DNA of 5,646 bases from Planctomycetota bacterium (GTDB lineage Bacteria > Planctomycetota > B129-G9): NCBI GenBank assembly GCA_030607235.1, contig JAUWEX010000096.1, forward strand, positions 1 to 5,646, read 5' to 3'. Each line of letters begins with the position of its first letter. Position 1 is the stretch's first letter. Positions 1,888-4,605 of this stretch are shown here, piece after piece. The translations under genes were made by a program, and so were the position numbers. The notes beneath the pieces are model-generated. The model was not told where the DNA came from. It saw only the letters and a list, made by a program, of their open reading frames with translations, and did not search any database.

Positions 1888-1907
1888 CGCAGGCGGGGCC
1901 AGGCAAT

Positions 1908-1920
1908 CCGCCTCAGGCGG
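1908..1920. repeat. GC-rich palindrome CCGCCT-C-AGGCGG
   Basis: Perfect 6-bp arms around one base, 20 bases after the ribBA stop. It lies just before repeat copy 1, as the palindrome at 4561-4575 lies just before copy 2, so it may be the outer hairpin of the same element. AGGCGG at 1891-1896 offers an alternative pairing with its left arm. There is no T-run, so it is not a canonical terminator. Confidence 0.6.
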
Positions 1921-1925
1921 CCTGG

Positions 1926-2021
1926 AGGCAATAGAGGAGGAGCCGCTCATTCCAATCCGCCTGAGGCGGACCGCTTCGTTGCTTTTCGCCCTTTGGCGAA
2001 AAGGGCGCTTCGCTTCCACAC
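1926..2021 (+). repeat. Dispersed intergenic repeat, copy 1
   Basis: This 96-bp stretch matches the reverse complement of 4466-4560 at 87 of 96 aligned positions (8 substitutions and one 1-base gap, counted by hand). The middle 58 bases differ at only two sites, one of them in a hairpin loop. Inside are two hairpins: TCCGCCT-G-AGGCGGA (1956-1970), and a 9-bp stem CTTTTCGCC / GGCGAAAAG with loop CTTT (1982-2003). The matching copy has loop CTTC, so the stem is kept while the loop varies. The stretch has no transposase and no plausible protein. It behaves like a REP/MITE-type non-autonomous intergenic element. Confidence 0.85.
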
Positions 2022-2067
2022 ATTGACAAATCTTGTGCGCGGATTCGCGATGTGATTTTTTTCTATC

Positions 2068-2094
2068 CGCAGATTGCGCAGATTTCGCAGAATT
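2068..2094 (+). repeat. Three tandem 9-bp units CGCAGATTN
   Basis: CGCAGATTG, CGCAGATTT and CGCAGAATT stand head to tail and are followed by a T-rich run and TTTTCTTTTGAAAA. It is a short low-complexity tandem repeat in gene-free DNA. I recall similar cgcagatt-type strings in intergenic DNA of other environmental genomes, often mis-called as small ORFs, but cannot verify that here. Confidence 0.55.
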
Positions 2095-2113
2095 TTTTCT
2101 TTTGAAAAATCAT

Positions 2114-2126
2114 GTGGCACAGCCAC
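2114..2126. repeat. Short hairpin GTGGC-ACA-GCCAC
   Basis: Perfect 5-bp arms with a 3-nt loop, in the same gene-free stretch as the tandem 9-mers. It may be another REP-like unit or chance; a copy count across the genome would tell. Confidence 0.4.
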
Positions 2127-2143
2127 CGGTAGTGGGCAGAAAC

Positions 2144-2224
2144 GGGAAAATCGTTGTACCGGGTGTTCACTGGGACGCATCGCATTTTCAGTATCTGATT
2201 GACGAGATGAACTCGATTCCATAG
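2144..2224 (+). pseudogene. Possible C-terminal remnant of a lost gene
   Basis: This frame reads GKIVVPGVHWDASHFQYLIDEMNSIP and then stops at 2222-2224. The composition looks like a real protein end: a beta-type strand, HWD, then an amphipathic helix. Upstream the same frame runs into repeat sequence (2068-2126), so any original 5' part seems to be missing. The stop overlaps the ribosome binding site of the next gene, as in an operon. I do not recognise the family, and a chance open frame is quite possible. Confidence 0.25.
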
Positions 2225-2234
2225 GAGAGGAATA

Positions 2235-2816
2235 ATGATTCGATTGAAATCCATGGCATTATTGTCATTTCTGTGCCTTGTGGTTGCGGTCTTTGCGGGT
2301 TGTTATAAACAGGCAGATCTAATAATCGAGATTGGCGAGGAAGGTCCCTTTAAGCCTCGCTTTGTTGCGAATTATGATATAATGAATCTAGATATATGCC
2401 ATGTGTACGGATGGCCGCAACGTACTCCTTCTACGGAGACCCCCGATGGCGAACCAGTAAAGAGAAGCATGTGGGTTTGGGAAATTATCTGCAAAGATGG
2501 CAGTCAATCCGAATTTAAATGCAATTCCGTTAAATATGGCGAATTGCCGCTTGGATATGAGGGACAAGGTGGAGCACCGCTGGAAACAGGAAAGTTATAC
2601 AGAGTTGAAGCATTCCTGGATAGGGGAGGGCATCCCTCTGCCAGGAAGGCGTTCGAATGGTTTTGCATATTAGAAGACGAATCGGGCGATGCGCGATTGA
2701 TAGAACTCACGTTTCGGGCTTCCCGGCATTCTGATTTAGACCCCCCGTTCAATGAAGTGAGGCTTGAACTCGAAGAAGGCACCAGAAAGATACTGAAGAT
2801 AATTCCGGTTGAGTAA
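2235..2816 (+). CDS. Predicted lipoprotein of unknown function
   Basis: 193 aa, starting at an ATG 7 bases after AGGAG (2223-2227). The N-terminus MIRLKS, hydrophobic run and lipobox F-A-G-C (Cys23) predict export and lipid anchoring. After the Cys the protein is soluble and mixed alpha/beta, with no further membrane segment. A central block, MWVWEIICKDG...VKYGELPLGYEG...APLETGKLYRVEAFLDRGG (about residues 79-135), resembles a pattern I recall from small uncharacterised proteins ('VWxI ... YGxxPxGF ... PLxxGxxYxV'), likely a compact beta domain. No enzyme motif is seen. Codon use is clearly richer in A/T (aat, tta, ata) than in ribBA or gdhA, which suggests an accessory or transferred gene. 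No promoter is recognised. It lies between two inverted repeat copies. Confidence 0.85.
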   Translation: MIRLKSMALLSFLCLVVAVFAGCYKQADLIIEIGEEGPFKPRFVANYDIMNLDICHVYGWPQRTPSTETPDGEPVKRSMWVWEIICKDGSQSEFKCNSVKYGELPLGYEGQGGAPLETGKLYRVEAFLDRGGHPSARKAFEWFCILEDESGDARLIELTFRASRHSDLDPPFNEVRLELEEGTRKILKIIPVE

Positions 2817-2831
2817 AAGCCACCCGACAAA

Positions 2832-2850
2832 AAAGGTGCCTGACACCTTT
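2832..2850. repeat. REP-like hairpin AAAGGTG/CACCTTT after the lipoprotein gene
   Basis: AAAGGTG, loop CCTGA, CACCTTT, starting 15 bases after the stop at 2816. On the plus strand only TTT follows. On the minus strand the arm runs into six T (plus-strand A-run 2829-2834), so as a terminator it would work better leftwards, where no gene needs it. I recall the GGTGCCTGACACC core as a common intergenic palindrome in many bacteria. It may end the lipoprotein transcript and be REP-like at once. Confidence 0.55.
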
Positions 2851-2897
2851 CCGTCTTTGCAGACTTCATAATCACACAAAAATCCCCAATTTTTCCG

Positions 2898-2915
2898 TTT
2901 CAAACAACGTTGAAA
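2898..2915. promoter_or_regulatory. Inverted repeat TTTCAA-N6-TTGAAA upstream of the gdhA promoter
   Basis: Perfect 6-bp arms with a 6-bp spacer; an overlapping 8-bp palindrome CAACGTTG sits at 2905-2912. It lies about 50 bp upstream of the -35 box, a usual place for an activator site. The regulator is unknown. Confidence 0.3.
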
Positions 2916-2964
2916 ATCGCGGCGCGGCGGCAAAAACTTTCTTTGCAAATTATGTGAAAATAAT

Positions 2965-2993
2965 TTGACAGCGCATATGCGCGGGCGTAGAAT
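2965..2993 (+). promoter_or_regulatory. Strong sigma70-type promoter of gdhA
   Basis: A perfect TTGACA (2965-2970), 17-bp spacer and TAGAAT (2988-2993, 5 of 6). Transcription would start near 3000, giving a 5' leader of about 59 nt. The -10 box lies in the loop of an inverted repeat GGGCG / CGCCC (2983-2987, 2995-2999). Confidence 0.75.
2971..2982. promoter_or_regulatory. Perfect 12-bp palindrome in the gdhA promoter spacer, likely operator
   Basis: GCGCATATGCGC fills the first 12 of the 17 spacer bases, directly after the -35 box. A dimeric repressor bound here would block RNA polymerase; a MerR-type activator working on the spacer is another option. No regulator gene is in view, so its identity is open. 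Confidence 0.45.
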
Positions 2994-3058
2994 TCGCCCC
3001 TAAAATTTAACTAGTTGCATTCGCTGGTTTAGTTATTGTTAGCCTGATGGAGGACAAC

Positions 3059-4309
3059 ATGGCAGCCAAATTCAACCCTTGGGCGATGGCCCAAGAGCAG
3101 GTGGACGCCGTAGCCAAACGGATCAAACTCGATCCCGGCATTCACCAGGTACTTCGCAATCCGCGTCGCACCCTCACCGTTTCCATTCCGGTCCGCATGG
3201 ACGACGGAAGCATCAAGGTATTCGAGGGATACCGCGTACAGCACTCCCTCGCCCGCGGCCCCGCCAAAGGCGGACTGCGCTTTCACCCAGACGTTACGCT
3301 CGAAGAAGTAAAGGCGCTGGCCATGTGGATGACCTGGAAGTGTGCGGTCGTCGGCATTCCCTACGGCGGCGGCAAAGGCGGAGTCATCTGCAATCCCAAG
3401 AAAATGAGCCAGGGCGAAATCGAGAGACTTTCGCGCCGCTTCTTCTTCGAGATTTCCGCAATCATCGGCGAAGACATTGACATCCCCGCGCCCGACGTAA
3501 ACACCACCCCGCAGATTATGGCGTGGATGATGGACACCTATTCCATGAAAAGCGGCTATCCCGCGCCGCACGTCATCACCGACAAGCCGCTGGAAATAGG
3601 CGGATCGCTCGGCCGCAACAAGGCCACGGCCCAGGGCTGCTTCTACACGATCCAGGCCGCCGCGAAGAAACTTCGCATGCCGCTCAAGGGCAAAAAGGTC
3701 GTCGTGCAGGGATACGGCAACGCCGGATTCTTCATGGCCGAGTTCCTCAAGGGCGCAGGCTGCAAAATCGTCGCGGTCAGCGACTCGCAGGGCGGTATCT
3801 ACAAGGCCACCGGCATCGACGTCGCCGCCGCCAAGAAGCACAAAGAAAAAACCCGCACGGTCGTCGGACTCAAGGGCACGACGAAGATTTCCAACGCGGA
3901 AATCCTCGAGATCAACTGCGACATCCTCGTTCCCGCGGCGCTCGAAAACGTCATCACCAAGGACAACGCCCGCAAAGTCAAGGCCAAGATTATCGCCGAA
4001 GCGGCCAACGGCCCGACAACTCCCGAAGCCGACAAGATCCTCAACGCCAAGGGCGCGGTCGTCATCCCCGACATCCTCGCGAATGCCGGGGGCGTAACCG
4101 TCTCCTACTTCGAGTGGGTGCAGGGCCGCATGGGCCTGTGGTGGGACGAGAAAGACATCACCGAACGCCTCAAAAAGATCATGGACGACTCCTTCGCGGC
4201 AACATGGGACACCGCGGCGAAGGAAAAATGCGACATGCGCACAGGCGCCTACATCGTAGCGATGAAGCGCGTCGCCGACGTTACCAAGCTTCGCGGTATC
4301 TGGCCGTAA
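3059..4309 (+). CDS. gdhA: Glutamate dehydrogenase (Glu/Leu/Phe/Val dehydrogenase family)
   Basis: Cytosolic, probably hexameric enzyme that interconverts glutamate and 2-oxoglutarate plus ammonium with NAD(P). I start it at ATG 3059 (416 aa) because GGAGG at 3049-3053 sits 5 bases before it; the in-frame ATG at 3047 has no ribosome binding site. The N-terminal catalytic domain shows GPAKGGLRFHP (K70), TWKCA (K94), PYGGGKGG (catalytic K106) and DIPAPDVNT (catalytic D146). The Rossmann domain has GYGNAG at 218-223 and VSDS at 241-243. NAGGVTVSYFEW follows at 342-353. K70 together with S349 matches the glutamate-binding Lys/Ser pair; leucine dehydrogenases replace these with hydrophobic residues, so glutamate is the expected substrate. 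Coenzyme preference cannot be settled by eye. It has its own promoter and terminator, and the next gene makes glutamate from P5C. Confidence 0.95.
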   Translation: MAAKFNPWAMAQEQVDAVAKRIKLDPGIHQVLRNPRRTLTVSIPVRMDDGSIKVFEGYRVQHSLARGPAKGGLRFHPDVTLEEVKALAMWMTWKCAVVGIPYGGGKGGVICNPKKMSQGEIERLSRRFFFEISAIIGEDIDIPAPDVNTTPQIMAWMMDTYSMKSGYPAPHVITDKPLEIGGSLGRNKATAQGCFYTIQAAAKKLRMPLKGKKVVVQGYGNAGFFMAEFLKGAGCKIVAVSDSQGGIYKATGIDVAAAKKHKEKTRTVVGLKGTTKISNAEILEINCDILVPAALENVITKDNARKVKAKIIAEAANGPTTPEADKILNAKGAVVIPDILANAGGVTVSYFEWVQGRMGLWWDEKDITERLKKIMDDSFAATWDTAAKEKCDMRTGAYIVAMKRVADVTKLRGIWP

Positions 4310-4332
4310 TCGCAACAAACAAACACGCACAC

Positions 4333-4362
4333 AAAGAGCGGCTCGAAAGGGTCGCTCTTTTT
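4333..4362 (+). terminator. Rho-independent terminator of gdhA
   Basis: Arms AAAGAGCG (4333-4340) and CGCTCTTT (4353-4360) extend through four more pairs (two are G-T wobbles) to a GAAA tetraloop at 4345-4348. This gives a 12-bp stem followed by a run of five T (4358-4362). It lies 24 bases after the gdhA stop. Confidence 0.9.
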
Positions 4363-4377
4363 GCGGGCAGTGCCCGC
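4363..4377. repeat. GC-rich hairpin GCGGGC-AGT-GCCCGC after the terminator
   Basis: Perfect 6-bp arms immediately after the T-run, with CTTTTT a few bases further on (4386-4391). It could back up the terminator or be one more REP-like palindrome. Confidence 0.5.
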
Positions 4378-4418
4378 TCCCAAGACTTTTTCCCACTCAT
4401 TTCAAAACTCGCTCCTTG

Positions 4419-4439
4419 TTATAGCGCTTCGCGCTATAA
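4419..4439. repeat. Hairpin with 9-bp arms TTATAGCGC / GCGCTATAA
   Basis: Perfect 9-bp arms around a TTC loop, in the gdhA-P5C dehydrogenase gap. There is no T-run and no match to the other hairpins in the window. Its function is unknown; it may be a further class of dispersed palindrome. Confidence 0.55.
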
Positions 4440-4465
4440 ACGCAGTCGCTTCACTTTTCGCCAGT

Positions 4466-4560
4466 GTGTGGGAGCAAGCGCCCTTTTCGCCGAAGGGCGA
4501 AAAGCAGCGAAGCGGTCCGCCTCAGGCGGATTGAAATGTGTAGCTCCTCCCCTATTGCCT
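4466..4560 (-). repeat. Dispersed intergenic repeat, copy 2 (inverted)
   Basis: Read on the minus strand this is the partner of 1926-2021, 95 bases with 8 substitutions and one missing base. It keeps both inner hairpins: the 15-base palindrome TCCGCCTCAGGCGGA (4516-4530), and the 9-bp stem CTTTTCGCC / GGCGAAAAG (4483-4504, loop GAAG on the plus strand). Most differences between the copies are transitions. With copy 1 it brackets the lipoprotein gene and gdhA. Confidence 0.85.
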
Positions 4561-4575
4561 GCGGACGTTGTCCGC
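4561..4575. repeat. Palindrome GCGGAC-GTT-GTCCGC bordering repeat copy 2
   Basis: Perfect 6-bp arms with a 3-base loop. It sits just outside copy 2, as the different palindrome at 1908-1920 sits outside copy 1, so a hairpin here looks conserved in place rather than in sequence. It ends one base before the -35 box of the next promoter and could also serve as an operator. Confidence 0.5.
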
Positions 4576-4576
4576 C

Positions 4577-4605
4577 TTGAAATTGAGCGGCGAATCTGTT
4601 AGGCT
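4577..4605 (+). promoter_or_regulatory. Candidate promoter of the P5C dehydrogenase gene
   Basis: TTGAAA (4577-4582), 17-bp spacer, TAGGCT (4600-4605) with an extended TGT just before it (4597-4599). The -10 box is only 3 of 6, but the TG extension and good -35 box support it. The transcript would start near 4612 with a leader of about 49 nt. Confidence 0.45.

Follow-up and report, generated by a model that had tools for sequence, protein, structure and literature searches.

What kind of element are the two repeats of about 96 bp that face each other across a putative lipoprotein gene and gdhA in a Planctomycetota genome, and do they act on the genes that they enclose? The stretch analysed, in what follows the window (5,646 nucleotides, contig JAUWEX010000096.1, here C142), belongs to a metagenome-assembled genome of 1.82 Mb in 418 contigs that is 76% complete. 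An earlier note, made from the letters alone, had proposed either inversion of the segment between the repeats or membership of a non-autonomous REP/MITE-like family. The analysis indicates that the window repeats are copies of an abundant, mainly intergenic family built of hairpins, in which three blocks are combined almost at random, likely via exchange of hairpins between copies and not only by the spread of intact units. The family is most likely BOX/BIME-like and non-autonomous, with hairpins exchanged between copies; the gdhA segment is most likely an incidental neighbour, and a role of the window repeats as a special switch for the enclosed genes is unlikely.

Abundance, placement, and range of the family

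A BLAST search with window copy 1 as query found 48 places in its own genome, and a covariance model (R1) gave at least 149 matches at E <= 1e-3 among the best 150 of 726 first-look candidates. Six of these matches cover only part of the element, adjoining units have edges in common, and the 87 copies used for building the model match by construction; at least 149 is likely a lower bound on the copy number. A profile built from 31 seeds and run over 54 sequences (319 kb, including 13 kb masked) identified 126 matches, of which 107 had less than 10% overlap with called genes, 17 had 10-50%, and two had half or more, in agreement with the earlier suggestion of an abundant, dispersed, and mainly intergenic structured family. 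Genes were called by simple codon usage on the fetched contigs (77% of bases coding), a set enriched for match-bearing contigs, so that the placement figures are not genome-wide rates. Among 20 contigs drawn by number, six were wholly N (L069, L070, L071, L077, L079, and L081) and five of the 14 readable ones (64 kb) held 13 profile matches, from which a genome-wide total of a few hundred copies is extrapolated.

Spacer class could be assigned for 90 of the 126 matches, and copies were denser in convergent spacers (31 in 10.3 kb) than in co-directional (43 in 25.6 kb) or divergent ones (16 in 9.4 kb). Between co-directional genes, 29 copies lay on the genes' strand versus 14 on the other.

The whole element gave no covariance-model match in 39 relatives, among them two genomes from the same family, with up to 74 candidates scored in each, a depth at which weak distant versions may be missed. 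BLAST of copy 1 against 29 relatives displayed matches only in G001 (same family): a pair of 20-nt matches and a single 52-nt match at 81%, each lying over a 15-nt hairpin discussed below. The tail gave a single match, in Pseudomonas brassicae and taken as chance, among GTDB r220 genome contigs, a collection that may omit near records of the window's own genome. The expectation of a dispersed family therefore stood for the many copies within the genome and fell for the relatives (whole element in 0 of 39), and the family was found solely in this genome among those searched.

Architecture and base pairing of the element

Comparison of the flanks of 30 BLAST places revealed that the 96 nt recognised earlier are only the middle of the element. 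The alignment of 87 copies (A2) comprised 89 references minus L078:2649-2831, L040:108-257, and L040:5046-5200, dropped by no fixed rule, plus window copy 1. It displayed an element of about 160 nt ordered, from 5' to 3', as block 1 (a 15-nt hairpin, P1, and a linker), a long hairpin (H2), and a tail. P1 consists of 6 bp and a 3-nt loop, with stems GCGGGG, GCGGGC, GCAGGC, CCAGGC, and rarer others; the linker is conserved, and both linker and tail are unpaired. H2 occurs with about seven kinds of tip, by our own classification, and the tail in several types.

Across 20 named pairs, pairing was present in 92.4% of 1614 cells compared to 44.8-55.4% after a slide of 1-3 columns, controls that favour the H2 pairs somewhat since these were named after inspecting covariation. 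The covariation score was 0.334 versus 0.174 +/- 0.007 in shuffled alignments. The RNAalifold consensus from a MAFFT alignment contained P1 only (5 pairs), H2 being missed because its tips differ among copies. Two further candidates were rejected. A helix of GGRAG in the linker with CTYCC at the 3' end of H2 appeared when copy 2 was folded on its own, and its within-copy match was not above that of permuted copies (50/200). As to terminators, TTTT followed H2 in 0 of 87 copies, and AAAA, the equivalent for the opposite strand, preceded it in two.

Blocks combined almost at random

One line of evidence for exchange is the lack of association between blocks. Across the 87 copies, Mantel correlations were 0.003 between block 1 and H2 (p 0.49), 0.004 between block 1 and tail (p 0.43), and -0.052 between H2 and tail (p 0.84). 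Within blocks, the values were 0.22 for P1 and linker, 0.71 for the two arms of H2, and 0.21 for the tail halves (p 0.005 each), with 0.11 (p 0.015) for the linker halves. Sliding linkage over 75 non-redundant copies was high in H2, could also be seen in the tail, and fell to about zero at the H2 borders and across most of the linker. Coarse typing, which left 4, 1, and 12 copies as "other" for block 1, H2, and tail, gave 60 distinct combinations among the 87 copies, with no clear association for any pair of blocks (p 0.07, 0.17, and 0.45).

Chimeric hairpins were identified as well. Arm patterns were fitted by 61 hairpins, 46 of which had arms of type a or b (a/a in 21, b/b in 22, b/a in two, and a/b in one). 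The three chimeras (3/46) switch at the common CGCC-CTTY-GGCG tip in both polarities, each having the 5' arm of one type and the 3' arm plus downstream sequence of the other. Unlinked blocks together with chimeras make unit transposition plus point mutation alone hard to sustain, and we infer exchange between copies.

Such exchange may proceed by recombination or by template switching between look-alike hairpins, possibly via hairpins in single-stranded DNA formed as the chromosome is replicated or repaired. The preferred mechanism is template switching from one hairpin to a similar one, a process that has been proposed to homogenise hairpin arms (available text of PMC8794818) and would make a dedicated enzyme unnecessary. 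Stems might be kept perfect by copying from arm to arm, perhaps with additional selection on a hairpin of RNA or DNA, and the first dispersal would have been carried out by an enzyme acting in trans.

Several observations weigh against this reading. The association of P1 with H2 is near significance (p 0.07), low variation limits the linkage test in the linker, and the high linkage within H2 partly reflects base pairing rather than descent. Pairs changed on both sides (11 versus 9.4 shuffled; 78/500 shuffles as high) and pair types (28 versus 28.9; 421/500) were not above shuffles, as expected from few recurring stem versions. Among 18 adjacent same-strand pairs, three show 86-95% identity, and the mean likeness of adjacent pairs is raised (0.674 versus 0.604, p 0.0004), which indicates that tandem duplication copies whole units too; among non-adjacent pairs, the highest identities are 88-92%, making some whole-unit dispersal likely. 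Exchange is, moreover, read from paralogues in the single available genome of the species, in which no donor-recipient pair was seen.

Alternative explanations

Alternatively, the copies could be conventional non-autonomous mobile elements of REP/REPIN or MITE type that have been spread whole by a transposase, its gene lying in the quarter of the genome that was not recovered, in which case the independence of blocks would result from age and convergent change. This retains a real but clearly smaller chance than exchange between hairpins. High copy number and extragenic placement, both also features of REP sequences, agree with it, as do the greater density in convergent spacers, the non-adjacent copies at 88-92% identity, and the incomplete genome; the unlinked adjacent blocks and the chimeric hairpins speak against it. 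The REP membership considered earlier did not hold at the stems, where the GTAG/CGTC end tag was not found. Among the 87 copies, one had GTAG, one CGTC, and five GACG in the 8 nt preceding P1; before H2, none had GTAG and one had CTAC; after H2, 12 had CTAC; and in the linker eight had GTAG and five CTAC. Inspection of the alignment by eye likewise showed no MITE-type terminal repeats, with no transposon library searched; P1 forms the start of the element and an unpaired tail with variable borders its end. Its distinct modules in variable arrangement correspond to a BOX-like repeat.

In the recovered 1.82 Mb, with about a quarter of the genome missing, PF01797 (RAYT/Y1 transposase), PF07282 (TnpB-type), and PF00078 (reverse transcriptase) had no matches, other transposase families not being searched. 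This result counts both against spread of units by a transposase and against the trans-acting enzyme supposed for the first dispersal under hairpin exchange.

Rather unlikely is a functional structured RNA (e.g., a stabiliser in 3' untranslated regions) maintained by selection in many copies, with compensatory changes in the hairpins. The strong covariation, the bias toward the genes' strand in co-directional spacers, and the conserved unpaired linker and tail would suit such an RNA. The window displayed no Rfam match at gathering score, however, copies frequently adjoin each other and occur in both orientations, and template switching has been proposed to yield such covariation without selection (PMC8794818, in the text available). 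An inversion switch, in which recombination of the inverted copies (~91% identical) flips 2.4 kb with the lipoprotein open reading frame (ORF) and gdhA, is highly improbable given an abundant family with opposite-orientation copies on other contigs (e.g., C202, C121, and C181) and window copies that are short and imperfect.

Relation to known repeat systems

The following comparisons extend to the available parts of the cited sources. The usual model for intergenic repeats of bacteria is one of whole units copied by a transposase, and a narrow search of open-licence literature found no report of bacterial block shuffling of the kind preferred here. The nearest case of reported palindrome shuffling appears to be the GC clusters of yeast mitochondria (PMC4478555), which are likewise short GC-rich palindromes of sporadic distribution, with small palindromic units reported to merge and shuffle into larger ones and a dispersal mechanism given as unresolved. 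The window family differs in residing in a bacterial chromosome and in having a larger, framed design in which linker and tail are conserved, without a demonstrated target-site duplication.

The nearest known modular repeat of bacteria seems to be BOX of Streptococcus pneumoniae (PMC3049150), compared by description and not by sequence, a modular intergenic element of similar size with predicted RNA stem-loops and variation in modules. BOX varies in the number of boxB units between boxA and boxC, whereas here each position takes alternative hairpins. REP, BIME, and REPIN sequences (PMC3733652; PMC3116915) share with the family high-copy extragenic palindromes, often clustered and inverted and frequent between convergent and co-directional genes, and REP families with alternative stems and loops have been described. 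REP units measure 20-40 bp and mostly bear a GTAG or CGTC tag at one end, GTAG REPs being tied to RAYTs (PMC3733652; PMC3116915). The element here has ~160 nt and lacks the tag at its stems, and the recovered part of its genome showed no Y1 transposase. Template-switch hairpins (PMC8794818) are alike in that replication copies one arm onto the other and covarying stems may result; the switch acts within one hairpin locus, whereas the swaps proposed here would join dispersed copies.

If hairpin exchange is correct, the family would constitute a recombining population of hairpin modules near linkage equilibrium, comparable to the yeast mitochondrial GC clusters, and a bacterial system for testing hairpin exchange through single-stranded DNA. 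It would also be a warning that covarying stems in such repeats are no proof of a functional RNA.

The copies in the window and their surroundings

The inverted pair pointed out in the earlier note is real, with arms at 1926-2010 and 4476-4560 that are 92% complementary over 85 nt, by far the longest inverted repeat in the window (the runner-up has 28 nt at 71%). Its count of 87 agreeing positions out of 96 is matched by BLAST (91% over 96 nt, 4466-4560 on the minus strand) and by a concordant MAFFT alignment, and the stems described as unchanged, TCCGCCTGAGGCGGA and CTTTTCGCC/GGCGAAAAG, are intact in copies 1 and 2. The elements in the window extend over ~170-187 nt and comprise the following features.

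1890..2076, plus strand: copy 1, whole element (covariance model R1, E 5.1e-27; among the 87 model-building copies)
1899..1925, plus strand: block 1 hairpin of copy 1, CCAGGC..GCCTGG (sequence)
1907-1920, plus strand: TCCGCCTCAGGCGG nested within this hairpin (sequence)
1926..1955, plus strand: linker of copy 1 (87-copy alignment)
1956..1970, plus strand: 15-nt hairpin TCCGCCTGAGGCGGA of copy 1, at the junction of linker and long hairpin
1971..2017, plus strand: long hairpin H2 of copy 1, tip type a (CTTTTCGCC/GGCGAAAAG at 1982-2003)
2018..2076, plus strand: tail of copy 1, type B (TTGTGCGCGGATTCGCGATGTGATTT)
4414..4584, minus strand: copy 2, whole element (covariance model R1, E 5.8e-25; among the 87 model-building copies)
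4561..4575, minus strand: block 1 hairpin of copy 2, GCGGACAACGTCCGC (sequence and alignment)
4531..4560, minus strand: linker of copy 2 (alignment)
4516..4530, minus strand: 15-nt hairpin TCCGCCTGAGGCGGA of copy 2, at a site identical to that of copy 1
4471..4515, minus strand: long hairpin H2 of copy 2, tip type a
4363..4451, plus strand: third, partial copy with hairpin GCGGGCAGTGCCCGC at 4363-4377 (profile match, E 1.9e-6)

In other copies, the site of the nested TCCGCCTCAGGCGG is occupied by a 3-nt loop (CCAGGC-AAC/AGC-GCCTGG), and in copy 1 it is a second hairpin of the 15-nt type, one base shorter. The partial copy overlaps the tail of copy 2 in opposite orientation, forming an inverted composite.

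The 96-nt copies have no overlap with the codon-usage gene calls, consistent with the earlier statement that they hold no gene; copy 2 at full length would overlap the aldehyde dehydrogenase gene (called start 4568) by 17 nt. Of the two genes said to be bracketed, gdhA was confirmed by Pfam (ELFV dehydrogenase), and the "lipoprotein" ORF (2235-2816, 193 aa) had no Pfam match and was absent from the codon-usage gene calls; a protein search found five relatives of it besides itself. By Pfam, the surrounding genes are ribBA, gdhA, and aldehyde dehydrogenase.

A few minor sequences were noted as well. A short direct-repeat stretch, ATCCGCAGATTGCGCAGATTTCGCAGA, follows the tail of copy 1 at 2065-2091, and several type-B tails elsewhere in the genome continue into ATCCGCAGATTGCGCAGATTTCGCAGA-like sequence. 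A CTGAAAGGGACAC-type repeat stands directly after some element tails in the genome (L035, L046, L049, L056, L060, and L061). Directly 3' of gdhA, AAAGAGCG..CGCTCTTTTT at 4333-4362 resembles an intrinsic terminator, and AAAGGTGCCTGACACCTTT at 2832-2850 is a palindrome of a different kind.

The 15-nt hairpin in other genomes

The 15-nt hairpin was followed as the pattern TCCGCCTNAGGCGGA in 149 genomes of the phylum, the window's own included. It occurred 42 times in its own genome, 103 times in G001, 158 times in G137 (another family), nine times in G098, one to three times in five more genomes, and not at all in 140 of the 149; a reversed control pattern totalled 10 across nine genomes. With any loop allowed, the counts were 178 in G137, 122 in G001, 59 in G130, 44 in G000, 28 in G015, 24 in both G062 and G098, 18 in G080, 16 in G063, and at most 10 in other genomes, with controls up to 18. 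The surroundings of the hairpin sites examined in G137, G001, and G098 were unlike those in its own genome.

The hairpin appears in place of short stretches at otherwise look-alike sites. Such sites are CCAA-TAC-CCGC and GGCAG-TGC-CCGC in its own genome, GTCATTGCGA-GCGAAGC-GAAGCAATC and GGGCGAACA-CATAAG-TTCGCCCC in G137, and AGGAGCCCCG-ACTTG-TCGGGG in G001, the replaced stretches being 3-7 nt long; some look-alike sites in G137 carry other tips of 11-15 nt. A search for filled and empty sites gave 8 of 30 sites in G137 (mismatched-flank controls 0-3), 13 of 22 in G000 (controls 4-6), where at least one case is false (L032 764, whose "empty" sites contain the hairpin), and 6 of 17 in G001 (controls 1-5), barely above controls. 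The evidence for replacement exceeds controls in G137 and G000 and is weak in G001.

A tentative reading, to which we give less than even credence, is that TCCGCCTNAGGCGGA may be a mobile hairpin of 15 nt, among the smallest known DNA units multiplying in bacterial genomes, which would replace short stretches and hairpin tips of unrelated resident repeats and would have passed among remote lineages within a single phylum, the window family being a larger assembly of such interchangeable hairpins. A general preference for the loops of larger palindromes was rejected, a result that weighs against the exchange of hairpins between copies: enrichment was displayed by G137 only (11/500 permutations) and not by G001 (79/500), G098 (497/500), or G000 (496/500). 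Possible target-site duplications of the hairpin in G001 (CAA and TTG) are not claimed, since tandem repeats in the flanks make them ambiguous. A RAYT as driver was rejected as well, since counts of Y1 genes do not track those of the hairpin: PF01797 was matched in 13 of 20 chosen genomes, with three matches in G001, one in G002, five in G098, one weak match in G137, and nine in G025, which has no 15-nt hairpin. The 15-mer with a TGA/TCA loop and its TTT/AAA variant had no match in the text of 5.39 million papers, the TTA/TAA loop not being searched.

Tip variation extends beyond the window family, as indicated by a frame in G001, GGGGGTCAGACGCTGAGGAG..GGGTCTGACTCCC, that carries alternative tips GAGCGAAGCGAC, CCCCGACTTGTCGGGG, CCCCGATTTATCGGGG, or a TCCGCC hairpin (L103, L104, L105, L106, L107, L109, and L052). 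Frames of GTCATTGCGA..GAAGCAATC in G137 carry the tips GCGAAGC, GGGGCGAAGCCCC, GGGCTTTACCCC, or TCCGCCTTAGGCGGA (L098, L102, L135, L136, and L140). Not all modules are shared across genomes, since high counts of the 5' hairpin GCGGGGACGCCCCGC are confined to the window's own genome (37 over both strands; next highest 7, in G144). In G034, the reversed control of the GCGGGGACGCCCCGC comparison occurred 23 times forward and 18 times in reverse, which points to another repeat family met accidentally.

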